Source: a virus. Taken from it: a stretch of 25,382 nt of DNA. The position numbers were made by a program, and so were the translations under genes. Location: IMG/VR virus record IMGVR_UViG_3300028287_000027, positions 1 through 25,382 of that record; one strand, 5' to 3'. The notes beneath the pieces were generated by a model that was given only the letters and a program-made list of their open reading frames with translations, was not told where the DNA came from and did no database searches. Below are positions 783-22,861 of this stretch, piece after piece. Numbering within the stretch: position 1 is the first letter of the stretch; every line of letters starts with the position of its first letter.

Positions 783-1073
783 ATGGCTAATTATGCAACA
801 AAGTTCGCTACAAGCGACAACACTTTTACAGGTGGCTATACTTCTTTGGAAGTCAATGGCAACTACAACGACGACTCTAAAATCGGACGGGGCGTTGTAC
901 AAATTCACATTACAACAGGCACCGTAGACCTTCAAGCAAAGCTTACAAGTGCTGGCCCTTGGACTACTATTAAGAACTACACAGCAAGCACTATTGAAGA
1001 AGTAGTAATAGCCCCTTACTTTCGGGTTGTTGTTAGTGACTCAGCTGAATGCTTCTACGCAGAGCATAGCTAA
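783..1073 (+). CDS. Small beta-rich phage protein of unknown function
   Basis: A 96-residue protein with AAGGA at 772-776, six bases before the start. It overlaps the large adhesin by one base (TAATG at 1071-1075), a layout that favours reinitiation, so the two products are likely made together. The sequence is predicted to be almost entirely beta strand: short alternating hydrophobic stretches (GVVQIHITTGTVDLQAKL) followed by APYFRVVV and a short acidic tail. No membrane segment or signal peptide is present. The pattern of a residue-wise value followed by 'sAGPWTTIKNYT' looks like the small beta-sandwich proteins found next to phage fibre or decoration genes, but I cannot name the family. 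A fibre-associated or capping role is inference from context. Confidence 0.6.
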   Translation: MANYATKFATSDNTFTGGYTSLEVNGNYNDDSKIGRGVVQIHITTGTVDLQAKLTSAGPWTTIKNYTASTIEEVVIAPYFRVVVSDSAECFYAEHS

Positions 1074-4000: not shown

Positions 4001-4732
4001 ACTTTCGATGGTACAACAGAATGGCTTCAAGGCAACCCTATCAACATGACTGCTCTAGAACGAGCAACAAATGGTGACGGTAATGGTTGGACTATCTCTA
4101 TGTGGGTTAAACCAGATACGTCAAACACAAGTAATCAGACCTTACTAGTTTATGGTGCAGGTGATGATTACAATGGTGGAGCTATTACTCTAAAACAATC
4201 AGGTGGAACTACACTAGTACTAAACTACGGTACTGTTTATGATAACATCATACTGGTAGCCGCTAACTCATTTGTAAACAACACATGGCAACATGTAATG
4301 ATTACTTTTGATGGTGGAACTACTGGCGTTGACTTTAATCAATCTGGTGCTTACTATGGTAGGTTTAACATCTTTGTTGATGGAGTAGCTAAGTTTAAGA
4401 TTGGTGTTGCTACCAATGGTGGTTACGATGGTGCTATAAGTGGTGCTAACGCAAGCGACAACATCTATCGTATTGGTAGAGCGTCTAACGTACACAACAA
4501 CTACTATGACGGTATTATCAACCAAGTAGCTATTTGGAATACAGACCAAACTGCTAACGTGGCGACTATCTATAACAGCGGTGCTGCACAAGACTTAAGC
4601 CTTTTGGCTACAGCCCCTGCAAACTACTATGAGATAGAGTCCTCTGTAACAACTATAGCTGACATCGAAGGCTCTGCGCCTTTGACTGGTTATAACTTTG
4701 TTGCTGGTGATTTGGTAACAGACACACCATAA
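1073..4732 (+). CDS. Large multidomain tail adhesin (beta-repeats, duplicated lectin-like domain, Ig-like, LamG)
   Basis: A 1219-residue virion protein, probably a receptor-binding fibre or spike. Visible in order: a Gly-rich N-terminus (GGGGITGTG, near residue 15) and a beta-rich domain to about residue 300; a short helical segment near 350 (SVLNNAVTELNNL) that could trimerise; four tandem beta repeats of about 30-35 residues at 369-502, each of the form SG-x-hydrophobic-x-G-N-x-L-x-L-T followed by V-x-V-D; two divergent copies of a beta-sandwich at about 545-680 and 710-866; a cadherin/putative-Ig-like domain at about 876-964 (SFTVEENTAFNFQIAL); and a C-terminal LamG/concanavalin-like domain at about 975-1175 (SLTFDGTTEW, WTISMWVKP, WQHVMITFDGG). 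No enzyme motif is seen. The start overlaps the upstream stop by one base. LamG and putative-Ig domains are known sugar-binding and stalk modules, so host-surface glycan binding is likely but unproven. Confidence 0.8.
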   Translation: MSENVFSNMIPSTGGGGITGTGLTTDQQEFLSHWNYDENTRRLTSTKAIETTLNSLYLGEQHKMSSGSENIYFTNLSSDINFFPMWGGLKDQSITTNRDSTGFIPPSGRVYTDMFSLPLGGAPDPLTSVGYAGNNYFGINISGLGITTVAAEQIDADVRLEYRITINGRQVYMQELPRSAARSSAGAVIYPGDVIEWFFDHPVDVRAGTTLFAEIHKVRNSDDVDLGIFQVRQGDIVDPNTGLLRYQATVHNRLFEDKDLELISPYLKYKAMDFSVDSTGTSILLKDLSLAAGSQMLIPHNINTIQAIANGTEIKIMVKDGAKILIESLPVSAVSINGSFVNSVLNNAVTELNNLFTNTQSFASQGNPVTGFTLSGNNLTLALADATSYTVDVTTLGVDTNKFVASGALNGNIITLTMDDATSVFVDVAGLAVDNDTTIVSGSVSGNTMSLTTNSGSVITVDVTSLATGSSTQVVSGAVVGTNLVLTMGDASTVTIDAANMINGSTMSAVNDQWYISYGANANEPVASNAINTTLVGGTEVRLQGPYYFGQKLQRGQEFKFNMDTGNQLRLGIWDGAEVATSYTDQSTAGNWNTVFSYANGNGKFTSSTNTDITTYHASGYTATNNAPMSIRFGNDGHLTLMDLSGGTEVVVGKTTIALSVTEFNLQFGGFNNSTFPNGIIDSTSFLWEIVHDFAGTEAGIINGILDHTVLKSNISILPGEKIMFMLDEAGTGDFFGTGYTAAATGVATAEEQLEHTWIYQNNEAIVFDTAVGVSDWNANTNATHSGGGYFYSASLNQYRDGGAGAIAGMFSLRYTTDNTITLYDEDRNVKIATRKSDGDGTTPLHLFFGVKGNRAYYSIPEISKQSITGGSQPNLTFAPDVSDQSFTVEENTAFNFQIALDANSDIVNMYGESDAPTWAVLNQVSGQFIGTSAAFTGSTDSYVIACKAANAIGGITNFNVTINVTQATYTNSKSLTFDGTTEWLQGNPINMTALERATNGDGNGWTISMWVKPDTSNTSNQTLLVYGAGDDYNGGAITLKQSGGTTLVLNYGTVYDNIILVAANSFVNNTWQHVMITFDGGTTGVDFNQSGAYYGRFNIFVDGVAKFKIGVATNGGYDGAISGANASDNIYRIGRASNVHNNYYDGIINQVAIWNTDQTANVATIYNSGAAQDLSLLATAPANYYEIESSVTTIADIEGSAPLTGYNFVAGDLVTDTP

Positions 4733-5276: not shown

Positions 5277-7964
5277 ATGTCTTATTCAACAACATTGTCC
5301 AAAAACGAAATTTCAATTAGCCTGTCTCGTACAGGTGGCCAAGGTACTAAAGGCGACACTGGTGTAACTGGCGAAAGCGCTTATCAGACAGCAGTAGACT
5401 TGGGTTTCGTAGGTACTGAAGCTGCATGGCTTCTTACGCTCGTTGGACCACAGGGTGCTGACTCTACTGTAGTAGGCCCAACAGGTCCAACAGGTCCAGA
5501 AGGTCCGACAGGTCCACAGGGTGCATCTGGTACTGGTACAGGTGACTTGCTTGCTGCTCAGAACTTAGCTGACGTAGCTAACGCTGCTACATCACGTACT
5601 AACCTAGGTTTAGGTGACGTTGCTACTACATCCATTACAGACTATGCTACAGCTGCGCAAGGTCTTCTTGCTGCCTCTGCTTTACAATCTGAAACATCAC
5701 ACGCTGATGTTCTTGTTGATGGTGAATTTGCTAGTGCTGGTCTAATGACTACTGACGGTTCTGGTGTTTACTCTATAACCGCTACTACTGACTTCGCAAC
5801 AGCTGCACAAGGTACTTTGGCAGACTCTGCCTTACAGACTTTGGCTCTTGGTGGTGTATCTGATGTAACAATCACAACACCTACTTCAGGTCAAGTTCTT
5901 AAGTATAATGGCTCTGCATGGGTTAACGATACTGACAACGAAGGAACTACTATTAGTTCTATCGATGACGTATCAGACGTAACAATCACTTCTGTTGCTT
6001 CAGGTGAACTTCTTGCTTGGAATGGCTCTGCTTGGGTTAACAACACCTTGGCTGAAGCTGGCGTGGCTACAGCTGCACAGGGTACTTTAGCTGATTCCGC
6101 TCTGCAGTCTTTCACAGAGACTAATGACCTTTCATCAGTAGTAACTTGGGCAGATGTCCCTAATGCGAATATCGTAGAAGGCGCTGTAACTCAGCACCAA
6201 GCCGCTTTGTCTATTACTGAATCACAAATTAGTGACTTTGGTACATACGAAACAGCCGATGCAACTATTCTTAAAGATGCCGATATCGGTGTAACAGTAG
6301 AAGCGTTTGACGCTACTATCTTGAAAGACGCTGACATTGGTGTTACCGTAGAAGCTTTCGATGCTACTATTCTTAAAGATGCTGATAAAGGCGTTGCTAA
6401 CGGTCTTGCTACTCTTGATAGTTCTGGTCTTGTCCCTTCAGCACAGCTTCCTAGCTATGTCGATGACGTTATAGAATTTGCTAACGCAGCATCCTTCCCA
6501 GCAACAGGTGAGACAGGTAAACTTTATGTTGACCTCTCAGATAACTCTGTACACCGTTGGAGTGGTTCTGCTTACATCGACATCACTGACTACTCAACAC
6601 CGGGTCACACCCACACAGCCTCTGAAGTAACAGACTTCTCAGAAGCCGTGGATGACCGTGTAGCAGCCTTGATAGTATCTAACGATGGTATGTCAGTAGT
6701 ATATGATGATGCTGCTAACACAATAGAACTAAATGCTGAACACGTAGCTATAACAGTAGTGAACAACACAGGTTCTTCTATTGCACAGGGTTCTGTAGTA
6801 TACCAAAGCGGTGTAGCAGGTCAACACCCAGAAGTGAGCCTAGCTGATAACTCTTCTGCTTCTACAATGCCAGCTTTAGGTGTACTCCACGAAACTATTG
6901 CTAACGGTGCCGAAGGTGAGTTGGTCATAGTAGGTCGTATTCAAGGTGTAATTAACACTAGTGCTTTCTCTGAAGGTGACGTCCTATGGGTCGGAACTTC
7001 TGGGGCGCTTACTGCTACTAAGCCTACAGGCGAAGGTTCTCTTTTGCAGAACATGGCTAGGGTAATAAAAGTACACGCATCCAACGGTTCTATTATGGTA
7101 TTGGGCGCTGGTCGTTCTGCAGCTGTATCTAACCTTAATGATGGTAACATCTTTATTGGTAATGCCTCTAACGAAGCAGTAACAGCAAGCCTAACAACAG
7201 AAGTACAAACAGTTGGTGATGCACGTTATTTAACTTTAACTGGTGGAACTCTGTCTGGTGACATTGATGGTAATGGCAACAAGATGCTCTTTGCTAACAT
7301 GTATGCAAACCTAGTTGACTTACCTAGTGCTACTACCTATCACGGTATGTTTGCTCACGTCCATGCAACAGGTAAAGGCTACTTCGCACACTCTGGTGCT
7401 TGGGTTGAACTTGCTAACGAAGCTGATAAACTAAACCTTTCTGGCGGTGCTATGACAGGTGCAATCACTACTAACTCTACCTTTGACGGTCGTGACGTAG
7501 CTACCGATGGTACTAAACTAGATGGTATTGCTACAGGTGCTAACCTCTACGTACACCCAACAGGTGATGGTAATAACCACATCCCAACAGGTGGTGCAGC
7601 TGACCAAGTCCTGACCTACTCCGCTTCTGGTGTAGCTGTTTGGGCTGATGCTGCTGGTGGTCTGGGTTCTCAAACTGCTACTCTAGCAACAGTAACAGAG
7701 ACGTCTATCGCTACGTTTGCTCATGCATCTTTCTCTGGTGTTAAAGCTTTCATTAGCGTAGTTGAAGGAACTGCTCGTCACGTAACTGAAATACTTATCA
7801 CACATGATGGTACAACGGCTTACGCTACAGAGTATGGTACAGTATCTACTGGTTCTTCTTTGGCTTCTTTTGATGTTGACATTAGTGGTTCTGATATTCG
7901 TATCTTAGCCACAGGTGCTGACGCTACTTCTAAGGTTTACTTAGTAACCTTTACAGCAATATAA
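5277..7964 (+). CDS. Collagen-like tail fibre protein
   Basis: An 895-residue fibre. Residues about 20-60 hold the widespread phage module GxSAYxxAVxxGFVGTEAxWL, here SAYQTAVDLGFVGTEAAWL. Residues 68-85 are a Gly-X-Y collagen-like stretch (GPTGPTGPEGPTGPQG), which forms a trimeric rod. Next come common fibre-shaft repeats: NLADVANAATSRTNLGLG, three ATAAQG-x-LA-x-SALQ units, two VTIT..SG-x-L-x-NGSAWVN units, and three 17-residue DATILKDAD units from residue 328. A small FPATGETGKLYV module lies at 407-438, an HTHTASEVTDF segment near 445, and a larger conserved domain (VLWVGTSGALTATKPTGEG) at about 493-618. The C-terminal 140 residues (TATLATVTETSIATF onward) form a beta-sandwich likely to be the tip. 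It probably mediates host attachment. It ends just before a strong terminator, and is co-translated with 4822-5274. Confidence 0.85.
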   Translation: MSYSTTLSKNEISISLSRTGGQGTKGDTGVTGESAYQTAVDLGFVGTEAAWLLTLVGPQGADSTVVGPTGPTGPEGPTGPQGASGTGTGDLLAAQNLADVANAATSRTNLGLGDVATTSITDYATAAQGLLAASALQSETSHADVLVDGEFASAGLMTTDGSGVYSITATTDFATAAQGTLADSALQTLALGGVSDVTITTPTSGQVLKYNGSAWVNDTDNEGTTISSIDDVSDVTITSVASGELLAWNGSAWVNNTLAEAGVATAAQGTLADSALQSFTETNDLSSVVTWADVPNANIVEGAVTQHQAALSITESQISDFGTYETADATILKDADIGVTVEAFDATILKDADIGVTVEAFDATILKDADKGVANGLATLDSSGLVPSAQLPSYVDDVIEFANAASFPATGETGKLYVDLSDNSVHRWSGSAYIDITDYSTPGHTHTASEVTDFSEAVDDRVAALIVSNDGMSVVYDDAANTIELNAEHVAITVVNNTGSSIAQGSVVYQSGVAGQHPEVSLADNSSASTMPALGVLHETIANGAEGELVIVGRIQGVINTSAFSEGDVLWVGTSGALTATKPTGEGSLLQNMARVIKVHASNGSIMVLGAGRSAAVSNLNDGNIFIGNASNEAVTASLTTEVQTVGDARYLTLTGGTLSGDIDGNGNKMLFANMYANLVDLPSATTYHGMFAHVHATGKGYFAHSGAWVELANEADKLNLSGGAMTGAITTNSTFDGRDVATDGTKLDGIATGANLYVHPTGDGNNHIPTGGAADQVLTYSASGVAVWADAAGGLGSQTATLATVTETSIATFAHASFSGVKAFISVVEGTARHVTEILITHDGTTAYATEYGTVSTGSSLASFDVDISGSDIRILATGADATSKVYLVTFTAI

Positions 7965-8027: not shown

Positions 8028-9971
8028 ATGTCAAATAATAAAGATTTTAAAGTAAAGAACGGTATTCAACCCACGGTCTATCACGAGACTTTGGGTACAG
8101 TTGTGTCTGGGAGTGTGGGGTATAGTTTAGCTTCTGCTAGTTATGATAGTGTCAGCTTCAGCGTAGCTGGTCAGGATGGTACTCCTTACGACATAATCTT
8201 CAACAATGACGGCACTAAAATGTATATAGTAGGCAACATAAATGACAGTGTTTACCAATACACTCTTTCTACAGCTTTTGATTTAAGCACAGCTTCCTAT
8301 GATAGTGTCAGCTTCAGTGTAACGGACCATATGGTTGTTCCTCGTAGCATAGCCTTCAACAACGATGGTAGTAAGATGTACACAGTTGGGAGTACTAATG
8401 ACAATGCTTACCAATACACTCTTTCTACAGCTTTTGACTTAAGCACAGCTTCATATGATAGTGTTAGCTTCAGTGTAGCTGGTCAGGAACTTGCTCCTAC
8501 TGGTATAAACTTCAGCAGTGATGGTACTAAGATGTATATTGTCGGGTATGATACCGATAGTGTGCATCAATACACTCTTTCTACAGCTTTTGATTTAAGT
8601 ACCGCTTCATATGATAGTGTCAGCTTCAGCGTAGCTGGTCAGGATACTGCTCCTTTCGGCCTAGTCTTCAACAGTGATGGTACTAAGATGTATATGGTAG
8701 GCTTCATAACTAAAAGTGTTTACCAATACAGTTTGTCTACAGGGTTTGACTTAAGTACCGCCTCTTATGACAGTGTTATCCTCAGTGTAAATAGTCAGGA
8801 CTCTAGTCCTGCAGGTATTGCCTTCAACACTGATGGCAGTAAGATGTATATAGTTGGGTATTCCGGCGACACAGTCTACCAATACTCCACAACCCTAACC
8901 ACAGCAGAACTAGACCTATCCACAGGTTCAGTCTTTGATTACACCCCAACGTCTGACGTACAGGTAACACTAACCAACCCTGCTGCTAGTGGGACATCTA
9001 GTGGTGCTACGTTGTTGTTGGATGGGGGTTCTTCTGCTGGATATGACTTAGGTAATGCTGCTTATAGTGGTGTTAGCTTTAGTGTAGCTAGTCAGGATGC
9101 TAATCCTTTAGGTATAGCCTTCAACAATGATGGCAGTAAGATGTATATGGTTGGGTTTTCCAGTGGCAGTGTATATCAATACACTCTTTCTACAGCTTTT
9201 GACTTAAGCACAGCTTCATATGACAGTGTTAGTTTTAGTGTAACTAGTCAGGATACTAGTCCTCAGTACATAGCCTTCAATAATGATGGTAGTAAGATGT
9301 ATATGTTAGGCGACACAAATAACAGTGTATATCAATACACTCTTTCTACAGCTTTTGATTTAAGTACAGCTTCATATGATAGTGTCAGCTTCAGTGTATC
9401 TGGTCAGGATACTTCTCCTGACAGCATAGCCTTCAACACTGATGGAACTAAGATGTATATGGTTGGGGTTTCCAGTGACAGTGTGCATCAATACACTCTT
9501 TCTACAGCTTTTAACTTAAGTACCGCTTCATATGACAGTGTCAGCTTTAGTGTAGCTAGTCAGGATACTGCTCCTTTCGGTATAGCCTTCAACAATGACG
9601 GCACGAAGATGTATATGGTTGGGAATCTTAGTGACAATGTATATCAATACAGCTTGTCCACAGCTTTTGACTTAAGTACAGCCTCATACGATAGTATTAG
9701 TTTTAGCGTAGCTGGGCAGGAGGCTATTCCTTTAGGCATAGACTTCAACAATAGTGGCACTAAGATGTATATGGTTGGGAACGGCAGCGACAGTGTATAT
9801 GAGTACTACACAGCTACACCAGCAACCATCACATACGATTCAGCCCTACAGTGGTCTGGCGGTACAGCACCTACAGCACCCGCTATCGGTGAAACAGACG
9901 TAATAACATTCAACACGACAGACGGTGGTACTACATACCAAGCCGTACAAGCTATAGATGGAGCTAAGTAA
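8028..9971 (+). CDS. Tail-associated protein with two five-repeat beta-propeller blocks (propeller protein 1)
   Basis: A 647-residue protein. The N-terminal 38 residues (KDFKVKNGI, then a Gly/Ser linker) are shared with the next two genes and probably attach it to the virion. Ten repeats of exactly 52 residues follow, in two blocks of five (residues 39-286 and 346-593). Each repeat reads YDSVSFSV, QDxxPxxIAFNNDGTKMYMVG, then VYQYTLSTAFDLSTAS: four short strands, as in a YVTN/WD-type propeller blade, with the DGTKMY turn invariant. After block one comes LDLSTGSVF...TNPAASG; after block two comes TITYDSALQW...TDGGTTYQ. These are the two halves of one C-terminal beta domain, contiguous in 11923-13053. 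Function is not known; a lectin-like or receptor-binding role is inferred from position among fibre genes and from five-bladed lectins such as tachylectin-2. The stop overlaps the next start (TAATG). Confidence 0.8.
   Translation: MSNNKDFKVKNGIQPTVYHETLGTVVSGSVGYSLASASYDSVSFSVAGQDGTPYDIIFNNDGTKMYIVGNINDSVYQYTLSTAFDLSTASYDSVSFSVTDHMVVPRSIAFNNDGSKMYTVGSTNDNAYQYTLSTAFDLSTASYDSVSFSVAGQELAPTGINFSSDGTKMYIVGYDTDSVHQYTLSTAFDLSTASYDSVSFSVAGQDTAPFGLVFNSDGTKMYMVGFITKSVYQYSLSTGFDLSTASYDSVILSVNSQDSSPAGIAFNTDGSKMYIVGYSGDTVYQYSTTLTTAELDLSTGSVFDYTPTSDVQVTLTNPAASGTSSGATLLLDGGSSAGYDLGNAAYSGVSFSVASQDANPLGIAFNNDGSKMYMVGFSSGSVYQYTLSTAFDLSTASYDSVSFSVTSQDTSPQYIAFNNDGSKMYMLGDTNNSVYQYTLSTAFDLSTASYDSVSFSVSGQDTSPDSIAFNTDGTKMYMVGVSSDSVHQYTLSTAFNLSTASYDSVSFSVASQDTAPFGIAFNNDGTKMYMVGNLSDNVYQYSLSTAFDLSTASYDSISFSVAGQEAIPLGIDFNNSGTKMYMVGNGSDSVYEYYTATPATITYDSALQWSGGTAPTAPAIGETDVITFNTTDGGTTYQAVQAIDGAK
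8142..8885 (+). repeat. Five-repeat propeller block 1A, 156-bp period
   Basis: Repeat starts at 8142, 8298, 8454, 8610 and 8766, exactly 156 bp apart with no indel; the fifth unit ends at its VYQY strand. DNA identity between units is high (shared segments such as ACACTCTTTCTACAGCTTTT). Confidence 0.9.
9063..9806 (+). repeat. Five-repeat propeller block 1B, 156-bp period
   Basis: Repeat starts at 9063, 9219, 9375, 9531 and 9687, again exactly 156 bp apart. The block lies between the two halves of the C-terminal beta domain. Confidence 0.9.
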
Positions 9972-11905
9972 TGGCTAATGATAAAGACTTCGTAGTGAAT
10001 GGCCCTGTCGTTGTAGGCAAGGACACTAAGGTTACAGTAGGTACTATTGGCTCTGGTCAAGAGGGGTACAACCTTGCTGGTGCTAGTTATGATAATGTTA
10101 GTTTTAGTGTAGCTGGTCAGGATACTGCTCCTTTTGGCTTCGCCTTCAACAATGATGGCACTAAAATGTATATGGTTGGCCCCCTTAGTGACAGTGTTTA
10201 CCAATACACTCTTTCTACAGCTTTTGACTTAAGCACAGCTTCCTATGATAGTGTCAGCTTCAGTGTAAATAGTCAGGACGCTAATCCTTCTGGCATAGCC
10301 TTTAACAATGTTGGCACTAAGATGTATATTGTTGGGTACGGCAACGATAGGGTATACCAATACAGCCTTTCCACTGCCTTTGATTTAAGCACAGCCTCAT
10401 ACGATAGCGTTAACTTATATGTAGTAAATCAGGATACTAGTCCTCGTGGCATAGCCTTTAACAATGTTGGCACTAAGATGTATATGGTTGGGACAGGCAA
10501 CAACAGGGTGCACCAATACAGCCTTTCCACTGCCTTTGATTTAAGCACAGCCTCATACGATAGCGTTTTCTTAAGTGTATCTGGTCAGGATGCTTCCCCT
10601 TACAGCATAGCCTTCAACGCTGATGGAACTAAGATGTATATGGTTGGGGCCACCAACGGCAGTGTTTACCAATACAGCCTTTCCACGGCTTTTGACCTGA
10701 GCACAGCCTCATATGACAGCGTTAGCTTCAGTGTATCTGGTCAGGATACTGCTCCTCTTGACATAGCCTTAAACACTGATGGCACTAAGATGTTTGTGTT
10801 AGGTAATATTAACGACTCCATCTACCAATACTCCACAACCCTAACCACAGCAGAACTAGACTTCTCCACAGGCAACTACTTCGATGACACACTAGCTGCT
10901 GATACGACATACACCTTTAGTAATGCAGGGGATGTGCAAGCGTTTCAGCTAGAGGTTACTGGTTATGTTATTATCACAAACAACTGGGATATTTCTACTG
11001 CATCCTACAGTCAGAACTTTAGTGTAGCGGCTCAAGAGACTAGCCCACGAGACCTCTTCTTCAAACCTGACGGCACTAAAATGTATATTACGGGAGAAAG
11101 TGGTGATGACGTAAACGAATATGACCTAAGCACAGCGTGGGATTTATCTACAGCTTCCTATAACCAGAACTTTAGTATATCGGCTCAAGATACTGGCCCA
11201 CAAGGTCTCTTCTTTAAGACTGACGGTACTAAGATGTATATTACTGGGAGTAGTTCAGATAGAGTACACGAGTACAACCTAAGCACCGCTTGGGATGTTT
11301 CTACTGCATCTATCCTTCAGAACTTTAGTGTTTCTTCTCAAGATACTTTCCCCCAAAGTATTTTCTTTAAGCCTGACGGTACTAAGATGTATATTGTTGG
11401 GTCCGCTGGCGTAGACGTGAACGAATACGATTTAAGCACGGCTTGGGATGTTTCTACTGCATCTTTCCTTCAGAACTTTAGTGTTTCTTCTCAAGATACT
11501 GGCCCAACAGGGGTATCCTTCAAGTCTGATGGTACTAAGATGTATATTGCTGGAGCTGTTGGTGATGACGTAAACGAATATGACCTAAGTACCGCTTGGG
11601 ATATATCTACAGCTTCTTATAATCAGAACTTTAGTGTAGCGGCTCAAGATACTGCTCCAACAGGGGTATCCTTCAAGCCTGATGGTACTAAGATGTATAT
11701 TGTTGGAGTTATTGGAGATGCCGTAAGTGAATACGACATTGGCTCATCCTCCGTCGCAACCCTCACATGGCCTAGCTCAATAGAGTGGGCTGGTGGTATA
11801 GCACCTGCTGCCCCTGCTAATGGTGAGACAGACGTATTTACATTCACGACTAACGATAGTGGAACAACATACACTGGTGTTAAGTCAATAGACAACGCAA
11901 GCTAA
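9971..11905 (+). CDS. Tail-associated protein with two dissimilar five-repeat propeller blocks (propeller protein 2)
   Basis: A 644-residue paralogue of the preceding gene, starting in its stop codon (TAATG). The N-terminus (KDFVVNGPVVVG) matches the presumed attachment segment of protein 1. Block one has five 52-residue repeats of the same type as protein 1 (LSTAFDLSTASYDSVSF); block two has five 51-residue repeats of a second type (FFKPDGTKMYITG, VNEYDLSTAWDVSTAS, QNFSV). So the protein is a chimera of the two repeat families. The C-terminal beta domain is again split: LDFSTGNYF...AFQLEVTG precedes block two, LTWPSSIEWAGG...GTTYTG follows it. No catalytic residues are evident. Function in glycan or receptor recognition is inference; I am confident of the repeat architecture and of a structural-module location. 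Confidence 0.8.
   Translation: MANDKDFVVNGPVVVGKDTKVTVGTIGSGQEGYNLAGASYDNVSFSVAGQDTAPFGFAFNNDGTKMYMVGPLSDSVYQYTLSTAFDLSTASYDSVSFSVNSQDANPSGIAFNNVGTKMYIVGYGNDRVYQYSLSTAFDLSTASYDSVNLYVVNQDTSPRGIAFNNVGTKMYMVGTGNNRVHQYSLSTAFDLSTASYDSVFLSVSGQDASPYSIAFNADGTKMYMVGATNGSVYQYSLSTAFDLSTASYDSVSFSVSGQDTAPLDIALNTDGTKMFVLGNINDSIYQYSTTLTTAELDFSTGNYFDDTLAADTTYTFSNAGDVQAFQLEVTGYVIITNNWDISTASYSQNFSVAAQETSPRDLFFKPDGTKMYITGESGDDVNEYDLSTAWDLSTASYNQNFSISAQDTGPQGLFFKTDGTKMYITGSSSDRVHEYNLSTAWDVSTASILQNFSVSSQDTFPQSIFFKPDGTKMYIVGSAGVDVNEYDLSTAWDVSTASFLQNFSVSSQDTGPTGVSFKSDGTKMYIAGAVGDDVNEYDLSTAWDISTASYNQNFSVAAQDTAPTGVSFKPDGTKMYIVGVIGDAVSEYDIGSSSVATLTWPSSIEWAGGIAPAAPANGETDVFTFTTNDSGTTYTGVKSIDNAS
10088..10831 (+). repeat. 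Five-repeat propeller block 2A, 156-bp period
   Basis: Repeat starts at 10088, 10244, 10400, 10556 and 10712, exactly 156 bp apart. Closest in sequence to the blocks of the gene at 8028. Confidence 0.9.
11006..11734 (+). repeat. Five-repeat propeller block 2B, 153-bp period
   Basis: Repeat starts at 11006, 11159, 11312, 11465 and 11618, exactly 153 bp apart. Second repeat type (FKPDGTKMYI, NEYDLSTAWD), closer to the gene at 11923 than to block 2A of its own gene. Confidence 0.9.
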
Positions 11906-11922
11906 TAGAGGAGAGTGAATCT

Positions 11923-13053
11923 ATGAAAGCTTTTAAAATTAAAAATGGCCTTAGTGCCACAAGGTATTTAGGAAGTAACGGTACTGGGACCATTGGTATT
12001 GTGGGGTATGATATCTCTGGTGCTAGTTATGATAGCGTTAGTTTTAGTGTACACCCTCAAGATACTAATCCAGTGGCAATCTTCTTTAAACCCGACGGCA
12101 CTAAAATGTATGTTCTTGGGCTAGGTGGAGACGATGTTAATGAATACAATTTAAGTACAGCTTGGGATATAACAACTTCAGTTTATTCTCAGTCATTTTC
12201 TGTATCTTCTCAAGAGACTTATCCACTCGCACTTTTCTTTAATCCCAATGGTACTAGGATGTATGTTGTGGGTAATTTAGGAAAAGACATAAATGCATAT
12301 AGGTTAACTACAGCTTGGGATGTATCTACAGCAGTTTACTTAGAAAACTTTTATGTAGGTAATAGAGAATCTAATCCAACAGGACTCTTTTTTAAACCTG
12401 ATGGTACTAAGATGTACATTACTGGCAATGGTGGGGATGAAGTAAACGAATTCAATCTAAGTACAGCTTGGGATATAACAACTTCAGTTTACTCTCAATT
12501 ATTTTCTGTATCTTCTCAAGAATCTTATGCAACATCAATATTTTTTAAATCTGACGGTTTAAGCATGTACATTACTGGCACTAATGGGCGTGAAGTAAAC
12601 GAATTCAGTCTAAGTACAGCTTGGGATATTTCTACAGCATCTTTCTCACAGCTCCTTGATGTATCTGCTCAAGATAATGAACCACAAGCGATATTCCTTA
12701 AACCTGACGGGACTAAGATGTTTATTGTTGGTGAGGTTAATAACTCTGTTTTCCAATACTCAACAGTATCATACACACAAACCCTAGACCTATCCACTGG
12801 TACTACATTCAGCCTCACCCCTAGCGGTGCAACTACTGTGTCGTTCACTAACCCACCAGCATCAGGTAATGCTATAGGTTTTTCTGTAGAGGTAGTGAAC
12901 ACAGGTGGTCGTACAATCACATGGCCTGACAGTGTGAAGTGGCATGAGGCTACGGCACCAACAGTTACAGCATCAAAAGAGTTGTATGCGTTTGTTACAA
13001 CAGATGGTGGTACAACGTATTATGGCAGGAAAGCCGCAGAGGAGATAGCGTAA
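11923..13053 (+). CDS. Tail-associated protein with one five-repeat propeller block (propeller protein 3)
   Basis: A 376-residue member of the same family with its own ribosome binding site (GAGGAGAG in the 17-nt gap). It is the simplest complete version: N-terminal FKIKNGLSATRYLG attachment-like segment, five repeats (residues about 36-279) of the FFKPDGTKMYITG / NEYNLSTAWD type, then an uninterrupted C-terminal beta domain (LDLSTGTTFSLTPSGATTV, TNPPASG, GGRTITWPDSVKW, TTDGGTTYYG). This contiguous domain is the reference that shows the split in the two larger paralogues. The stop overlaps the next start (TAATG). One propeller per protein suggests a trimeric or single-tip display, but that is not visible from sequence. 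Function unknown; a receptor- or glycan-binding accessory virion protein is the best inference. Confidence 0.8.
   Translation: MKAFKIKNGLSATRYLGSNGTGTIGIVGYDISGASYDSVSFSVHPQDTNPVAIFFKPDGTKMYVLGLGGDDVNEYNLSTAWDITTSVYSQSFSVSSQETYPLALFFNPNGTRMYVVGNLGKDINAYRLTTAWDVSTAVYLENFYVGNRESNPTGLFFKPDGTKMYITGNGGDEVNEFNLSTAWDITTSVYSQLFSVSSQESYATSIFFKSDGLSMYITGTNGREVNEFSLSTAWDISTASFSQLLDVSAQDNEPQAIFLKPDGTKMFIVGEVNNSVFQYSTVSYTQTLDLSTGTTFSLTPSGATTVSFTNPPASGNAIGFSVEVVNTGGRTITWPDSVKWHEATAPTVTASKELYAFVTTDGGTTYYGRKAAEEIA
12028..12759 (+). repeat. Five-repeat propeller block 3
   Basis: Repeat starts at 12028, 12184, 12337, 12490 and 12643 (one 156-bp spacing, then 153-bp spacings). Confidence 0.88.
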
Positions 13054-13883
13054 TGAGTAATATAGCAAGTATTATGGGTTTATTCGCTGGTGCGGAGGCA
13101 CCTATCCAGTGGATTAGTTATGATATTGACACCTTTACCGCCGAAACATCAGGTACATTAAGTACAGGTCAGTCAGGGACTGGTATTACTTTTAGTACAG
13201 ACGGTACTAAGTTTTACAGTGTTTATAGTGGTACCTACAGTGTCTATCAGTACTCTTGTTCTACTCCTTTTGACATATCAACAGTTTCTTATGACAATAA
13301 GTCGTTTACCTTAAACTCTGGCATAACGGAGTCAAACCCTGCGGGTATTCGGTTTGACCCCGAGGGCACTAAGATGTTCATAAGTGGAAGCAGTAATGAT
13401 GGTGTTCTTGAGTATGCGCTTTCTACCCCCTGGGATGTATCTACAGCTTCTTATACTGCATTCAAATCTATGACTTCTTCGGGTAATAACTTTACAGGTA
13501 TTCACTTCAAACCTGACGGGACTAAGATGTACCTAATGAACTCTACAGATGTTGCTGTGCAGTGGTCGCTATCTACTGCGTGGGATATCTCTACAGCTAC
13601 ATACGATAGCAAGAGTTTTCTTACTAATAGTCAAGACTCTGTAGCTACAGATTTATATCTAAGCTCTGACGGTTTAAAATTATATACCAACGGTATTACT
13701 GGGGATAATATTTACCAGTACAGCCTTTCTACTGCGTGGGATATTTCTACAGCATCTTACGACAGTATATCTTTTAGTTACAATGCTCAAGGTACGAACT
13801 CTTATAATCTTACTTTCCACCCGGATGGTAGTAAGTTTTACGTAGGGTTTAGTAATACTGTACATCAGTATACTGCAGCATAA
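13053..13883 (+). CDS. Minimal five-repeat propeller protein (propeller protein 4)
   Basis: A 276-residue protein that is almost only propeller. It lacks the KDFKVKNG N-terminus and the C-terminal beta domain of its three paralogues. After 22 residues (MSNIASIMGLFAGAEAPIQW) come five diverged repeats, spanning residues about 23-273, with the hallmarks DGTKFY, EGTKMF, DGTKMY, DGLKLY and DGSKFY and the linker LSTAWDISTAS; unit length varies from about 41 to 57 residues. The chain starts on a YDxxxF strand and ends on VHQY, fitting a closed propeller. It overlaps the preceding stop by one base and is followed by a chaperone-like gene. It might be a free tip, a decoration protein or a degenerate paralogue; the open frame and conserved turns argue against a pseudogene. 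Confidence 0.75.
   Translation: MSNIASIMGLFAGAEAPIQWISYDIDTFTAETSGTLSTGQSGTGITFSTDGTKFYSVYSGTYSVYQYSCSTPFDISTVSYDNKSFTLNSGITESNPAGIRFDPEGTKMFISGSSNDGVLEYALSTPWDVSTASYTAFKSMTSSGNNFTGIHFKPDGTKMYLMNSTDVAVQWSLSTAWDISTATYDSKSFLTNSQDSVATDLYLSSDGLKLYTNGITGDNIYQYSLSTAWDISTASYDSISFSYNAQGTNSYNLTFHPDGSKFYVGFSNTVHQYTAA
13119..13871 (+). repeat. Five-repeat propeller block 4 (diverged)
   Basis: Five units, each with a DG/EG-x-K-hydrophobic-aromatic turn and a YQY/LEY/VQW/HQY strand; spacing is irregular, unlike the other blocks. Confidence 0.75.
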
Positions 13884-13913: not shown

Positions 13914-14483
13914 ATGTATGCTAAAATTAACGGTGGAACAGCAGAGAAGTTCCCGTATTCAGTAGGTCAACTCCGCAAGGATAACCCTAACGTATCTTTT
14001 CCTAAGAGCATCACACAAGGTGTTATGCAGAAGTATGGCATGGTTAGCGTACTAGAGGGGCCAAAACCTACTCCAGGGGTTTACCAGACAGTACAGCGCA
14101 ATGCTCTACCCACACGTCCTGTCATTGGTCAGTACACAGAAGATGATGCACCTATGCCTGACATGGTTGGTGAAGACATCATCGCTAGCCACTGGATGAT
14201 TGAGTACACAGCAGTAGATATGTTTGCTGATACAACTGACGAAGAAGGTAATGTCACAACTAAAGCTGAGCATGAGGCTGTATATCAGGTTACACTTGAT
14301 GCTAAAGCTGCTGAGTCTAATCGCAAGAAGCGTGATGAACTCATAGCAGCAACCGACTTCTACGCTCTCACAGACGTAGTAATGGATGCTAACATGACAG
14401 TATATCGTCAAGCTCTCCGTGATATCACTTCACACGCTAGTTGGCCTCACCTGTCTGATGCGGACTGGCCTGTCAAACCATAA
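13914..14483 (+). CDS. Tail-fibre assembly chaperone-like protein (Phage_tail_APC-type C-terminus)
   Basis: A 189-residue protein with AAGGAG eight bases before the start. The N-terminus (KINGGTAEKFPYSVGQLRKD) resembles a family common next to phage fibre genes. The C-terminal 50 residues match the tail assembly chaperone pattern: RDxLIAATDFYALTDV, then YRQALRDI and a closing WP-x-x-P. The same C-terminal signature is found in the gene at 21384. In known phages such proteins help fold or trimerise fibres and often are not in the final virion. Placement straight after the four propeller genes suggests it serves them or the collagen-like fibre. Which fibre is the client cannot be read from sequence. 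A hairpin lies after the stop. Confidence 0.7.
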   Translation: MYAKINGGTAEKFPYSVGQLRKDNPNVSFPKSITQGVMQKYGMVSVLEGPKPTPGVYQTVQRNALPTRPVIGQYTEDDAPMPDMVGEDIIASHWMIEYTAVDMFADTTDEEGNVTTKAEHEAVYQVTLDAKAAESNRKKRDELIAATDFYALTDVVMDANMTVYRQALRDITSHASWPHLSDADWPVKP

Positions 14484-14576: not shown

Positions 14577-15317
14577 ATGTCCAAAAAGCAATCACGTTAT
14601 TCGGTTAAACAGAACGCTAAAATGCCTAAGTATATGCGAGAAGAAGTAGAACGCAAGGCTAATAACGTTCACAAGCTGCCAACATCATTCCATCTTCTCC
14701 CTAAGAACGAGAAGCAAGATGACTTAATTAATGCTATTAAGGAGTGTCCAATTACGGTCACTATGGGTTGTGCAGGTACAGGAAAAACATATTGCAGTGC
14801 AGGGACCGTTGCTCAATTATTTATGAAGGGTAAATACAAAAAGATTGTATTGACAAGAGCTAACGTTCCAACAGGAAAATCACTGGGACACTTCCCCGGT
14901 ACTATAGAAGAAAAGATGACGCCTTGGCTTATGCCAATGTTAGAAGTCTTAACGAAGGCTTTTGGTAAAGGCAAGTATGAATACATGCTAACCAAAGGTG
15001 AAATTGAAATACAGCCCATCGAAACAATCCGTGGACGTTCTTATGAGGATGCGCTAGTCTTAGTTGATGAAGCACAGAACCTTTGTATGGACGAATTAAA
15101 GGCTATTACTACACGTTTAGGTCAGAACTCTAAGTTAGTACTTATGGGTGACCCTGCTCAGTCAGATGTTAAAGACGGTAGAGACTTGGTTAACTTTGCA
15201 CGTAAAGTGAATAACGCTGGTATTGATTTACCTGTAATTCAGTTTGGTGTAGAAGATATTGTTCGGAGCGATATTGTAGCCGACTTAGTAAGATTGTTTA
15301 TCGAAGAGGATATGTAA
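14577..15317 (+). CDS. phoH: PhoH-like P-loop ATPase
   Basis: A 246-residue protein of the phage PhoH family, close to the usual length. The Walker A motif GCAGTGKT is at residues 64-71 and Walker B ALVLVDEAQN at 159-168. Between them are family-typical segments VLTRANVPTG, the LGHFPG loop and PIETIRGRSYEDA, and after them LVLMGDPAQSD, a sensor-like motif. The preceding 60 residues are basic and contain no other domain. Host PhoH belongs to the phosphate regulon; in phages the role is unsettled, with RNA-related ATPase or helicase-like activity suggested. It is an unexpected tenant between structural genes. The ribosome binding site AAGGA lies at 14566-14570, overlapped by the stop of the minigene described above. 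Family assignment is certain; function is not. Confidence 0.93.
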   Translation: MSKKQSRYSVKQNAKMPKYMREEVERKANNVHKLPTSFHLLPKNEKQDDLINAIKECPITVTMGCAGTGKTYCSAGTVAQLFMKGKYKKIVLTRANVPTGKSLGHFPGTIEEKMTPWLMPMLEVLTKAFGKGKYEYMLTKGEIEIQPIETIRGRSYEDALVLVDEAQNLCMDELKAITTRLGQNSKLVLMGDPAQSDVKDGRDLVNFARKVNNAGIDLPVIQFGVEDIVRSDIVADLVRLFIEEDM

Positions 15318-15322
15318 AGATA

Positions 15323-15391
15323 CACAGAGAGTGACGTTAGGTGCGTTTGATGGGGGTACTCATCGAAGACCTCTTATCGTTGCTCTCTGTG
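15323..15391 (+). ncRNA. Rod-like 69-nt hairpin in the phoH/tail-tip spacer
   Basis: The spacer folds into one long stem. 15323-15336 pairs with 15378-15391 (14 pairs, two G-T), then after a T-T mismatch 15338-15341 pairs with 15373-15376. An internal loop separates this from an apical stem 15346-15354 / 15359-15367 (nine pairs, two G-T) with a GGTA loop. No T-run follows, so it is not a standard terminator. A competing helix exists: CTCTCT at 15383-15388 can pair with AGAGAG at 15404-15409, over the ribosome binding site of 15412. It may be an RNase III-type processing site, a translational switch or a small RNA. Confidence 0.6.
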
Positions 15392-15411
15392 CCACTCTGT
15401 AGGAGAGAGAA

Positions 15412-15867
15412 ATGTATTACACAGTAGAAGAGATAACCGTGGCAATGAACACGGCTAAGACTATAATTGACGAAAGAACCACGGGATTAGACACATACAC
15501 TCGTGGTGTAAATGATTGCTTTGCTCTCGCTGTAGAGTATACTAAAGCACTAACACAAAAAGAATCTCCCCTTAGTGATTTTAGTTATCGAGACTCCAGA
15601 GAGTTTCTAATTAAGATTAAGAAGGCAGGGTACAACGATGTTGCAACCCTAATGAATAAATGTGGTTATAAAATAGTCACAGGAACAAGACCCAAATATG
15701 GTGATATTGCTTTTGAATTCCTTCGAAATAACATAGGGACAGCGATGATAGCCTCTAATGGCTGTTGGGTTTCTACTTGCGAATTTAACACTGGAGTAAT
15801 TGAGAAAAGACCTATTAAGATAAAAGAGTCACTCAATGTACTAGGTAGACCTATTAAAAGGATTTAA
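15412..15867 (+). CDS. NlpC/P60-related (DUF6950-like) tail-tip protein
   Basis: A 151-residue protein. NDCFALAVEY with Cys36, then a helical stretch (SREFLIKIKKAGYNDVATLM), the PKYGDIAFEF strand at about 94-103, IGTAMIASNGCWVSTCE, and an ending of the form PIKIKESLNVLGRPI match the layout of the DUF6950-type relatives of NlpC/P60 peptidases found beside phage tail-tip genes. In active NlpC/P60 enzymes a His follows the G-D strand; here that region is NNIGTAMI with no His, so peptidase activity is doubtful. The ribosome binding site AGGAGAG (15401-15407) could be masked by the upstream RNA fold. The gene heads a tight tail-tip cluster (3-nt gap, then a 1-nt overlap and another 1-nt gap). A tail-tip component that touches the cell wall is inference. 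Confidence 0.55.
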   Translation: MYYTVEEITVAMNTAKTIIDERTTGLDTYTRGVNDCFALAVEYTKALTQKESPLSDFSYRDSREFLIKIKKAGYNDVATLMNKCGYKIVTGTRPKYGDIAFEFLRNNIGTAMIASNGCWVSTCEFNTGVIEKRPIKIKESLNVLGRPIKRI

Positions 15868-15870
15868 ACT

Positions 15871-16362
15871 ATGAAATACCAATTTGAAGGCCAAGATATT
15901 TTGGCACCGCTCACCATAGCGTCTAATGAACCTATGTTTGATGTTGATACAATATCGTTACAGAAACAAAGAGCATCTCAGAACGTACAACGTTGGGAAC
16001 TAAGTTTTGAAACAGCTAGTAATGATGTGACTGACTTACTTGCTGCTGTTGGCAACTTTGACACTGTTAAGACAATGCCTATGATACAGCTTCAGACTGT
16101 TAATGATAGACTGGGTACTGTTAACTTTCCTAAAGGTGCTTTTGTAACAGGAAGTAATGGTAAAGTATATATGGTCAAAGAGGATGCATCTAGTGTTCTA
16201 GCTAATAACCTATACCCCACCCCACCTTCTGGTTTAACATACTCTACTGTAGCCAACGCTGTAATCAGCTACTACAGAGATATTGATGACCTTCGTGGAG
16301 TAACTTTTCAAGACGGTATCCTTGCTAGCTCAGGTACAGTCACAATTATCGAGGCAATATAA
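15871..16362 (+). CDS. Putative tail-tip/distal tail protein
   Basis: A 163-residue protein without a family I can name with certainty. It is beta-rich: the opening (KYQFEGQDILAPLTIASNEP), a central WELSFETAS strand, then GKVYMVKEDAS and a final strand pair ending GTVTIIEAI. Such small beta proteins sit beside the DUF2163-like and J-like genes in siphoviruses and form the distal tail or hub ring, as the lambda M/L region does. The neighbours are diagnostic: NlpC-like gene three bases upstream and the hub-like gene at 16362 overlapping by one base (TAATG). No membrane segment or signal is present. The call rests on gene order more than on sequence motifs. Confidence 0.55.
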   Translation: MKYQFEGQDILAPLTIASNEPMFDVDTISLQKQRASQNVQRWELSFETASNDVTDLLAAVGNFDTVKTMPMIQLQTVNDRLGTVNFPKGAFVTGSNGKVYMVKEDASSVLANNLYPTPPSGLTYSTVANAVISYYRDIDDLRGVTFQDGILASSGTVTIIEAI

Positions 16363-16946
16363 TGAGAGTTTTTAGTAGTGTAGTAGAAGCTGTACTAGCT
16401 TCAGACAACATTAAATTTTTCTTCCTGATTAAGTTGAGCTTTAATTCTAACTACTACATCACCAGCCACGGGCAAGACATCTTCTTTGATGGCAATACCT
16501 ATAGTGCTAACGGTGGTTTGTTTGAGGTTGACTCACCTAAGTTCTCTTCTGTCATTGACAGAGAAGCTTACAGGATTGTTGTTATTGATAACCTGAATGC
16601 CATGAAGGCCGAAATTGAAAGTAATGTAGTTGGTAAACCTATTGAAGTAAAGTTAGGCTTCTTAGACACCGATGGTAGCCCCATCGTAACACCTGCCGAT
16701 GTTCTATCAGTCTATAAAGGGTATGTGGACTCCCCTACTATCACTAATGACTGGGACAAGAAGGTTGTTTCTTTTGAAGGCACCTCTGCGCTAGCAGACC
16801 TCGATATGGTAAACAGCTTTATAACATCTAGAGATGGTATGGACCAAAAGTCTTCGACTGACACATCCTTTGACCAGATTTACGAGAGCAGTGCTATTGA
16901 AATTAAATGGGGTAAACTTAACCAATCTAATGTAGTGGAGACGTAA
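16362..16946 (+). CDS. DUF2163-like tail hub protein
   Basis: A 194-residue protein resembling the DUF2163/tail-hub proteins encoded just before J-like proteins. Features in order: a helical N-terminus (VVEAVLASDNIKFFFLIKLSF), the strand-turn DIFFDGNTYSANGGLFEV, then SVIDREAYRIVVIDN, a GKPIEVKLGFLD strand, SVYKGYVDSPTI, VVSFEGTSALADLD and a terminal IKWGKL. The WG near the C-terminus and the fixed order of 'YKGYV' and 'LADLD' segments are what I base the call on. It overlaps the preceding gene by one base and lies one base before the J-like gene, whose platform it probably builds. Confident of tail-tip role, less of the exact family. Confidence 0.65.
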   Translation: MRVFSSVVEAVLASDNIKFFFLIKLSFNSNYYITSHGQDIFFDGNTYSANGGLFEVDSPKFSSVIDREAYRIVVIDNLNAMKAEIESNVVGKPIEVKLGFLDTDGSPIVTPADVLSVYKGYVDSPTITNDWDKKVVSFEGTSALADLDMVNSFITSRDGMDQKSSTDTSFDQIYESSAIEIKWGKLNQSNVVET

Positions 16947-16947
16947 T

Positions 16948-19900
16948 ATGGGTATTTCTATCTTACAAGCCGTTCTCTTTGTTGTATCGACAGCGTATCA
17001 AATTACGCAACAAAAGAAAATGAAAAAGAAAATGGAGGCCGAAGCGGATAAACGCCGGGGCTTCCGTACTACCGTTAGAGGTAGAGCTGAAACACTTCCT
17101 GTTATTTATGGTAAGCAGATGGTCGGTGGCATTGAAGTAAAGCATAAGGTTAGCAAAGACTACACCTATGCAGCCTCAGGGGCTAACGCAACCATCTTCG
17201 ACGAAAACCTCGGTACAACCGATGTAACAGGTACTAAGAGTGAGTTTCTTACGGTCCAGACAGCTCTCTGTCAAGATGGTATTGAGGGTGTTCAGTATGT
17301 CCATGTTGATGGCAAGTCCTATAACTTAGAAGAAGCAAAGTTTAAGCACAGAATTGTTATCAACAATAATGGTGGTTCCGCAGAACCCTTAGCAACAGCT
17401 AATGGTATTCCAAGCACTAATATATTTACTGGTACAGCTTTTGCTACTTCTGTGTATCGCCTTAACCGCGAAGAGCCAAACTATAATGGTATTCCTACTG
17501 CTGAATACTTTGTCAAAGGTCGTAAGGTGCGTGCAATCCTTAATAATGCAGGTACTTACTCTCTAAGTGGGACTTACACGTATTCTAACAACCCTGCTTT
17601 GTGTCTCTTAGACTATATGCTGAATGCAGACTTTGGTAAAGGTCTCTCAACTTCAGACATAGACCTAGAAAGTTTTTATAATGCTGCAACCATCTGTGAT
17701 ACTACGGTTCTAACTAATGCGGAAGCATTCGGTCGTATAAATAACTTTAAGCCTGTTCTAGACTTTGATACTCAGTCTGACTTCCCCGATGTAGGTGAAG
17801 AGTCAAATCTGTACCAAGCAGCAGACACAGGTAATCTGTTTAAATGGACCAACTCTACTGGTTTGTATTCATCGTATTCTGCTTCTTCCACTAGCAGAAA
17901 TGTAACTCTTTATGAGTGTAACATAGCTATTGACACAAGTAACAAGATACGTGACAACATAGAGACAATCCTACAGACTATGGGCTTGGCCGAATTAGTA
18001 TGGTCTTCTGAAGGTCAGTATAAACTGCTTCTAGAATACCCTGCAGATGAAACCGCACTTAACGCTTTGATTGACCCTACCCATCACTTTGATGAAGATA
18101 CAATTATACGTGATGATGTTGATATAAGCTGGACTCCTTTGTCAGAACGTTTTAACCATGTCACTGTACGTTATCTAAACGAACATGAGGACTTCAAAGA
18201 AGACTCTAAGTCTTGGCCTCCTAAGGGTGGCTCTGTTTATAGTACATATGAAAACGAAGACAACGGGCAACTATTAAGCTCAGATTTATTCTTCGAAGGA
18301 TGTTCAGACCCCTACCACGCCCTTGCTAAAGCGGAGCAGATGGTTAGACAGTCTAGAGATATGTACACCATATCTTTGACAGTTAGCAAACAAGGTCTTA
18401 CCTTAGAACCTGGTGACTTCTTTAGTGTTACATTAGACTCACAAGGACTGGACGGAGAAATATTCCGTGTAGAAAGCATTGAAGTATCAGAAGACCTAAC
18501 AGCTAAATTAACTGGTTATAAATTCTCCTCTGAATTTCTTGCTTGGAACGTAGCCGATAACGAAGCTTATACTACTATTGCTGGTGTTGATTCTAGAATT
18601 CCCGGCCCTGCTTCTATTACAGCTACCGACACTGGTTTTGTGAACCCTGATGGTATCTTTTCTTCCGCTGTAAAGCTTGAATGGCCCGCTTCAGATGATG
18701 CTTCGGTTCGTAATTATGAGATACAGTACAAGGTATCTACTGATGATACTTACAACTCTTACCGCACTAATCAACTTACTCATACCATAACAGGTTTGAA
18801 GACTGGTGAAGAGTATGACTTTCAAGTCAGAGCTATCAGCAACACTGGACAATATAGTGCCTTTGCTACTGTAATACATACTATCGGTGGTGATACTACT
18901 GTACCTGGACTACCTACACTCCTGACTGCTACAGGTAACTTTAAGTATATCTCTTTAGAATGGAATAACCCGGCTGATATTGATTTAGCCTTCGTTGAGA
19001 TTTATGAGAACACAGCTAACAGCACTACTGGTGGAACTAGGATTGCCACTACTCTTGGTAATACTTACACTAGGTCGGGCTTAGGTCTCGATGTAACTAA
19101 GTACTACTACGTACAAGCAGTAGATAACGCAGGTAACGTATCAGGTTTTAGTAACGTTGCTTCTGCAACTACAACTTACCTCGATGACCCTGACTTTGCT
19201 AACGGTGTTTACCAGATATTTAAGGACCAAGGTCTTTATGCTATTCAAGATTCTGCTGGTCTCCCCGCCTCTGGTAGTTTCACAGGTGAGAAAATATTTA
19301 ATACAAACGATGGTAAACTGTATCAATGGTCAGGTAGTGCTTGGGAACAAGTCGTTGGCGGTGCTGAGGACTTCAGTGACTTAGCGGGGTCTATTGCAGA
19401 TGCACAAATACCAGATGGCCTAATTGATACGCTAAAGTTAAGCGATGACGCCGTTACTAACGCTAAGATAGCTGTGAATGCAATCCAAGGTGACGTTATT
19501 GCCGCTGGAGCTATAACCAACACAAAGATTGGTACTGATGCTGTTACAACAGCTAAACTGGCTAACGAGGCTGTTACTGCTGCTGTAATTGCTGCAGGAG
19601 CTATAACTAACACAAAGATTGGTGCTAATGCTGTAACTACAGCGAAGCTGGCTAATGATGCTGTTACTGCTGATATAATTGCAGCGGGAGCTATAACTAA
19701 CACAAAGATTGGTGCTAATGCCGTAGATACCGCTAATATTGCCATAGGTGCAATTACAGCGACAGAGTTAGGTGTTGATGCTGTTACTTCTATCAAGATT
19801 CAAAACTCTGCCATTACATCAGCTAAAATAGGCAGTGATGCTGTTACGACATCAAAAATCGCAAATAATGCAATCACATCAGACTTAATTAACGCAAACG

Positions 19901-21387: not shown

Positions 21388-21794
21388 CTACTGTAACTAT
21401 TTACAAAACAGCAACTGGGCTTATTGACCGTACTATAACTGTTCAAGAAACTGACGTTGAAATGAACTGTCAAAGCGGCGAGGCTTGGATTGAAGGCGAG
21501 TATAGCCCGAATGAGTATATTATACAGAACGGGCAACCATACGGACTTCCAGAAAAACCTCTGTATCCAACAACCTTTGATTTAGCAACTTTAACTTGGG
21601 TTCAGGACAATGACAGGTTATGGGCTAAGCTTCGGTATGAAAGAAACTTAGAGTTGAAAAGTAGTGATTGGACGCAAGTACCCGATGCACAAGTTAATCA
21701 AGCTGCATGGGCTACTTATCGACAGGCTCTGAGAAACTTACCTAGTAACACAGTAGACCCTAAAACACCAGTGTGGCCAACGCCACCACAGTAA
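21384..21794 (+). CDS. Second tail-fibre assembly chaperone-like protein
   Basis: A 136-residue protein whose ATG overlaps the J-like stop (ATGA), with GGAGG in the end of that gene. The C-terminal half (LRYERNLELKSSDWTQVPDA, then YRQALRNL and VWPTPP) has the same signature as the C-terminus of 13914-14483 and of the Phage_tail_APC/fibre-assembly family. The N-terminal half is a different beta-rich domain (MTTVTIYKTATGLIDRTITV, then a GEAWIEGEYSPNEYII segment). Its tight coupling to the J-like gene suggests that the tail-tip shaft is its client, while the paralogue serves the propeller or fibre genes. This division is inference. Confidence 0.7.
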   Translation: MTTVTIYKTATGLIDRTITVQETDVEMNCQSGEAWIEGEYSPNEYIIQNGQPYGLPEKPLYPTTFDLATLTWVQDNDRLWAKLRYERNLELKSSDWTQVPDAQVNQAAWATYRQALRNLPSNTVDPKTPVWPTPPQ

Positions 21795-21806
21795 GGAGAA
21801 ATATTA

Positions 21807-22199: not shown

Positions 22200-22200
22200 A

Positions 22201-22746: not shown

Positions 22747-22749
22747 ATG

Positions 22750-22768
22750 GGGCGGAATAATGATATAA
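22750..22768 (+). promoter_or_regulatory. Intergenic motif GGGCGGAATAATGA copy 2, opening an ATG-ATA-TAA minigene
   Basis: The second copy (22750-22763) starts four bases after the endolysin stop. Its ATG at 22760-22762 is followed by ATA and TAA: a two-codon Met-Ile minigene, the same codons I recall for the lambda bar minigene. GGCGGA just upstream could act as a weak ribosome binding site. Whether it is translated is unknown. Confidence 0.45.
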
Positions 22769-22769
22769 C

Positions 22770-22796
22770 GAGGACAGACTAAGTCTGACAGTCCTC
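22770..22796 (+). other. Compound hairpin in the lysis/head spacer
   Basis: GAGGAC (22770-22775) pairs with GTCCTC (22791-22796), and AGAC (22776-22779) with GTCT (22783-22786), with loop TAA and a GACA bulge. No T-run follows. Confidence 0.55.
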
Positions 22797-22806
22797 TACT
22801 TCGAGG

Positions 22807-22836
22807 AGGCTCACTGGGATTAAACCCGGTGGGTCT
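22807..22836 (+). terminator. Hairpin in the lysis/head spacer, terminator-like
   Basis: AGGCTCACTGGG (22807-22818) pairs with CCCGGTGGGTCT (22825-22836), 12 pairs with three wobbles, loop ATTAAA. ACCCTTATTTATAT follows, so the T-tail is poor and displaced; it probably ends or trims the lysis transcript. Confidence 0.5.
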
Positions 22837-22861
22837 ACCCTTATTTATATAGGAAATAATA

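Follow-up and report, generated by a model that had tools for sequence, protein, structure and literature searches.

Predicted five-bladed propellers in four putative tail-fibre genes of a virus record, with relatives in marine phages and ocean bacteria

Results and discussion

Repeat blocks in four consecutive genes

The window, by which we mean the whole stretch of DNA analysed here, is a virus record of 25,382 bases. Four consecutive plus-strand genes carry 30 propeller units between them, grouped as 5+5, 5+5, 5 and 5. Gene 1 (8028..9971, 647 aa), which scores above the Pfam cut-offs for SGL and Lactonase, runs from a KDF-type N-terminus through a first propeller, a linker domain and a second propeller to a C-terminal fibre domain; its two five-bladed blocks, at 8124..8904 and 9045..9825, both have a period of 52 aa. 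Gene 2 (9971..11905, 644 aa) is 58% identical to gene 1 and has the same layout, with block 3 at 10070..10850 (five blades, period 52 aa) and block 4, of the WDISTASYSQNFSV subtype, at 10982..11753 (five blades, period 51 aa). Gene 3 (11923..13053, 376 aa) has a KxFKIKNGL N-terminus, a single five-bladed propeller (block 5, 12010..12778, period 51 aa) and a C-terminal fibre domain. Gene 4 (13053..13883, 276 aa) likewise holds a single five-bladed propeller (block 6, 13116..13880), and neither a KDF-type N-terminus nor a C-terminal fibre domain was found in it. A distant relative, gp58 of Maribacter phage Colly_1, is also 276 aa long and is flanked by two tail genes.

Unit anchors recur every 52 residues (156 bp) in blocks 1, 2 and 3 without exception, and every 51 residues (153 bp) in blocks 4 and 5; block 6 alone is irregular, at 54/51/51/52 residues. 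Where a gene has two blocks, the anchor gap from one to the next is 97-99 residues. As C-strand motif, blocks 1-3 have VYQY, whereas most units of blocks 4-5 have VNEY or a similar sequence. Our recount agrees with the initial annotation of this DNA that the four genes hold six blocks of five units, 30 in all. That annotation described four blocks of constant spacing and a mixed block 3, whereas we find five constant blocks, with block 6 as the irregular one. The pattern is not a chance one, since the units score well above propeller-profile cut-offs and the number five recurs in hundreds of relatives.

Outside the propellers, genes 1-3 have similar C-terminal domains, and in genes 2 and 3 this domain has matches among tail-fibre families. 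The domain of gene 3 (12779..13050) is common to phage tail-fibre proteins (phrog_9017, 7760 and 3904) and in tblastn matches tail-fibre genes of phAPEC8-like phages.

Genome setting and cultivated relatives

The propeller genes lie among tail genes. Upstream on the same strand is a tail-fibre gene (5277..7964; phrog_9729 tail fiber, E 1e-20) with a collagen-like stretch visible in its sequence, for which the Pfam Collagen match (E 0.47) is below cut-off. Directly downstream, also on the plus strand, is a tail assembly chaperone (13914..14483; PF16778, 44 bits against a cut-off of 26.6), followed further on by PhoH, a homologue of the central tail fibre J (16948-21387), a second chaperone, a holin, an endolysin and the portal. 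Taken together, a shared fibre domain and a neighbourhood of tail genes, the features by which we would recognise tail fibres, are both present, the domain being absent from gene 4. The PF16778 domain ends two different genes, one after the propeller genes (13914-14483) and one after the J-like gene (21384-21794), as if each fibre set came with its own chaperone. In the same cluster, 1073-4732 encodes another candidate adhesin, a protein of 1219 residues in which a Laminin_G_3 (concanavalin A-like lectin) domain lies close to the C-terminus.

The gene order from PhoH to portal (14577-25382) is that of phage DSS3_VP1 (Naomviridae), in which terminase genes precede PhoH where the window carries the propeller cassette; this comparison indicates that the cassette occupies a variable position. 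Relatives of the portal come from phages of Roseobacter-group and SAR11 bacteria (the DSS3 host being taken from the phage name), so that the host is probably an alphaproteobacterium.

Propeller relatives occur in cultivated phages, where they are annotated as hypothetical. ICBM2 gp51 has one block of five and lies between chaperone genes, gp43 of the Roseobacter phage CRP-13 has three blocks of five, and CRP-738 gp33 has two blocks, one fifth blade scoring weakly. Publications describing ICBM2 and CRP-13 make no mention of propellers. Across the wider set of relatives described below, a chaperone-like open reading frame lies within 4 kb at 116 of 225 viral loci, as against none of 79 bacterial loci.

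Predicted structure of a single block

From its sequence alone, gene 3 was modelled poorly by AF2, with a pLDDT of 44. With 113 relatives the mean pLDDT per ten residues rose to 93-99 over residues 31-280, and to about 98 over the blades, although the alignment rows were mainly excised five-unit blocks unable to show other counts. Gene 3 itself, however, has only five units. DSSP assigns an N-terminal strand (35-42), four successive A-B-C-D sets and a final A-B-C at 254-280, in the order D0-(ABCD)x4-ABC, with the N-terminal strand paired. Completion of the last blade by the first strand is the usual propeller arrangement. The gene 3 model is thus a ring of five four-stranded blades closed by the N-terminal strand, closure being judged from DSSP strand assignment and for this gene only. 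The initial annotation had taken each block for one complete five-bladed propeller, and both the unit counts and this closed, confidently modelled five-bladed prediction for 11923-13053 support that claim.

In fold searches, the top viral match was a separate public prediction for a protein of Lentibacter phage ICBM2 (TM 0.67/0.63). Next came proteins of marine phages, whose TM of about 0.66, normalised by query length, is close to the propeller share of the gene 3 chain. Matches in the PDB were mostly seven-bladed WD40/YVTN chains at TM about 0.4, which identifies no close solved fold, and no recognised five-bladed structure was seen among the best 50.

Blade number among relatives

A survey of homologues had been proposed as a check on the five-unit grouping. 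About 300 loci, all recruited through their similarity to the window, came from three viral-contig scans and a further scan that covered bacterial and archaeal genomes. We built a unit HMM on the 30 units of the window, iterated it once and applied it to all open frames; contig-truncated and duplicate arrays were dropped and a mean unit score of at least 50 was required. This replaced a strict regular expression for the joint motif, which undercounted blocks. Units were joined into an array when anchor gaps were at most 75 residues, a limit chosen, among four gap rules run in all, after the 97-99-residue between-block gaps of the window were known. Under limits of 53 or 60 residues some arrays were split, for example into 11+4, because between-block and within-block gaps lie near those limits; they resolved to multiples of five at 75.

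Multiples of five dominate on both sides, in keeping with the initial annotation. After score filtering, 218 viral arrays have five units, 32 have ten and eight have 15, the four others having one, two, three and four units respectively; among bacterial genomes, 30 arrays have five units, one has ten and there are no others. With the score filter off, all exceptions (23 viral, 29 genomic) have 1-4 units; under the 75-residue rule, arrays with 6-9 or 11-14 units were not seen among the roughly 300 loci. Those short arrays that we inspected are accounted for by diverged blades or by interrupted frames. L163 and L141 each have a diverged fifth blade, recognisable by eye immediately beyond the units that scored, and the short array of L085 is spread over short frames. 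Several genomic short arrays sum to five once neighbouring fragments are joined (e.g. 2+3 or 1+4); L076 is too divergent for a reliable unit count. The several short frames that share the propeller array of L085 (4524-7470) reflect either sequencing error or a decaying gene. Synechococcus phage S-SKS1 has, from position 2647 of its locus (L307), a frame of 1601 residues with four scored units and a possible weak fifth, for which the public record carries no annotated gene.

The count of five is not one sequence tallied repeatedly, as clustering of the 414 unique blocks of five units at 50% identity gives 107 groups. Moreover, in one relative (L017) 15 units follow one another at a constant 52 residues, but the joint motif (LSTAFDLSTASY) is changed after the fifth and the tenth, which indicates that the five-unit grouping is encoded in the sequence even without a gap.

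Block evolution and loop variability

Blades within a block share 0.49 identity, as against 0.50-0.52 with blades in other blocks of the same protein and about 0.41 between proteins. Since likeness within a block does not exceed that between blocks, whole-block duplication is favoured over amplification from one blade. Between the blocks of one protein, blades at the same position are 0.52 identical and those at different positions 0.50. Whole propellers also appear to come and go, as the initial annotation had suggested in proposing that their number varies from protein to protein. L038 has 15 units in three propellers, and its second and third propellers together with its tail align at 57% identity with L044, which has ten units in two; the difference is likely to be the gain or loss of a whole propeller. 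In protein pairs alike at both ends the number of propellers never differed, so such changes are unseen at close range.

Variability is unevenly spread over the blade. Over 2,070 units, the D-A and B-C loops have the highest mean entropy (2.88 bits) and the A-B and C-D loops the lowest (1.34 bits), with p 5e-5 in a rank test across positions that are not fully independent. In a four-stranded blade, the D-A and B-C loops share one face.

Cellular relatives

SAR11 and other alphaproteobacterial genomes encode the same unit in proteins of about 700-830 residues. Each has at its N-terminus a stretch that by eye resembles a signal sequence, then a single block of five and lastly a C-terminal barrel. 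The four such proteins that were compared with Pfam, and a neighbour of one of them, match Autotransporter, at up to 119 bits. Propeller proteins often lie two or three in tandem (L259:4215-8760, L261:2440-7139 and many of L238-L304), each with one five-bladed propeller followed by a C-terminal domain; the few of these tested against Pfam are autotransporters, and the open-licence papers searched gave no description of such proteins. Neighbouring genes, among them those for carbamoyl-phosphate synthase and methionine sulfoxide reductase, indicate that the loci are chromosomal. A possible link to the SAR11 hypervariable-region-1 autotransporters (PMC2217521) was considered, but the neighbours of L259 and L261 did not reproduce their setting. 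A further relative, L236, is adhesin-like, with 2230 residues and DUF4347 and cadherin-like domains.

A midpoint-rooted FastTree phylogeny of 153 blocks required 10 changes between phage and cell labels, compared with about 35 in shuffles. On this tree phage and cell blocks appear as largely separate groups, with some crossings.

Function of the propellers

We consider it probable that the products of the four genes are paralogous virion proteins of tail-fibre or adhesin type with one or two closed five-bladed propellers each, putatively host-binding fibres. The evidence supports a component of a tail fibre or adhesin; location at a tip is something we infer. The variable face formed by the D-A and B-C loops would bind a ligand on the host surface, probably a glycan or surface protein, and several propellers per fibre would provide avidity. 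Evolution would gain or drop whole propellers, we propose, because a propeller with another number of blades would not close. That the propellers bind a ligand is suggested by the combination of a variable face on a tail-fibre domain with the display of the same domain on cells. Against this reading are the lack of fibre domains in gene 4 and the closeness of the family to lactonase and SGL enzymes.

Other explanations must be weighed. The propellers could be tail spacers or decoration proteins that make no contact with the host, as might be expected from near-repetitive blades in multiple copies and from the similarity of gene 3 to phrog_19200, a 'virion structural protein'. However, the one-sided variability of the loops and the surface-adhesin setting in bacteria favour binding, and we regard a spacer role as improbable. 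That SGL and Lactonase are the top Pfam matches could instead point to lactonase, SGL or glycan-modifying enzymes mounted on the tail, but this is very unlikely: the similarity is limited to the repeat and does not extend to a whole enzyme, and blades that are nearly interchangeable with respect to position leave little scope for a unique catalytic set.

Arrays of ten and 15 units, and the seven-bladed 1l0q, might also indicate an open or larger structure such as a ten-bladed ring or a solenoid, with the number five an accident of genealogy. Yet isolated fives are by far the commonest arrays, the joint or gap changes after each fifth unit, and in the AF2 model five blades complete the ring, so we give such architectures hardly any credence. 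Host-binding fibres built from closed five-bladed units are thus our preferred explanation. A broader proposal, which we advance only tentatively and would not call probable, is that this is a widespread, undescribed five-bladed recognition module, derived from YVTN-type blades and fixed at five, common to marine phage tail fibres and to autotransporters of ocean bacteria, SAR11 among them; one of its faces would be hypervariable and serve for binding, and avidity would be tuned by gain or loss of whole propellers. A search of open-licence papers found no description of the repeat family in phages or SAR11.

A large family of near-alike blades locked at five provides a natural test of how blade number is controlled. 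If the variable face binds hosts, the fibres would offer a way of reading host range from sequence in marine phages that are abundant but uncultured, and the same module on SAR11 cells suggests a common surface-recognition domain on which both phages and bacteria draw.

Comparison with known propellers

SGL, Lactonase and YVTN families have six or seven blades, and YVTN blades are about 42 residues long; tachylectin-2 is a repetitive lectin with five. By sequence, the blades of the window belong with the YVTN/SMP-30/lactonase propellers and not with tachylectin. SGL matches genes 1 and 2 at 52.5 and 52.9 bits (cut-off 26.3), and Lactonase matches them at 41.4 and 50.3 bits and gene 3 at 32.7 (cut-off 21.7), gene 4 being under the cut-off; the nearest solved sequence relative is the archaeal surface-layer protein 1l0q (E 6.4e-15), a seven-bladed YVTN propeller. 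Despite this significant similarity, the window propellers differ from these families in having five blades, each 51-52 residues in length and with a C-D loop that is long and conserved, and five, not six or seven, is the number in all window blocks and in nearly all scored relative arrays. Tachylectin-2 shares the five blades and the repetitiveness but shows no sequence match, no tachylectin family appearing among the Pfam matches at E up to 1. Tachylectin has been assigned to the VCBS supercluster of propellers (PMC8023676), whereas the window family matches SGL, Lactonase and YVTN. Phage_RBD_prop (PF21311) was also considered and rejected, as gene 3 reached only 12.9 bits (E 0.085) against a cut-off of 23.7 and the other three genes gave no match to this Pfam family.

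The platform of the receptor-binding protein (Gp45) of Staphylococcus phage phi11 consists of five four-stranded blades in a ring closed by an N-terminal strand, and PRD1 P2 has a distorted five-bladed propeller (PMC4901313). Five-bladed propellers in phage receptor-binding proteins are thus already known from phi11 and PRD1 P2. From the interpretation first offered for this locus, closed five-bladed units and variation by whole propellers are retained, kinship with tachylectin-2 is unsupported, and the description as an unusual fold for a phage tip was too strong. The gene 3 model resembles the phi11 protein in its five four-stranded blades and closure by an N-terminal strand, whereas the phi11 protein has one propeller per chain and the window genes have up to two. 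The phi11 blades are not known to be near-identical repeats. Closely similar blades are found in highly repetitive, recently amplified beta-propellers, those that are globally repetitive favouring larger and varied blade numbers (PMC9218822); the window family has similar blades too, but is fixed at five.
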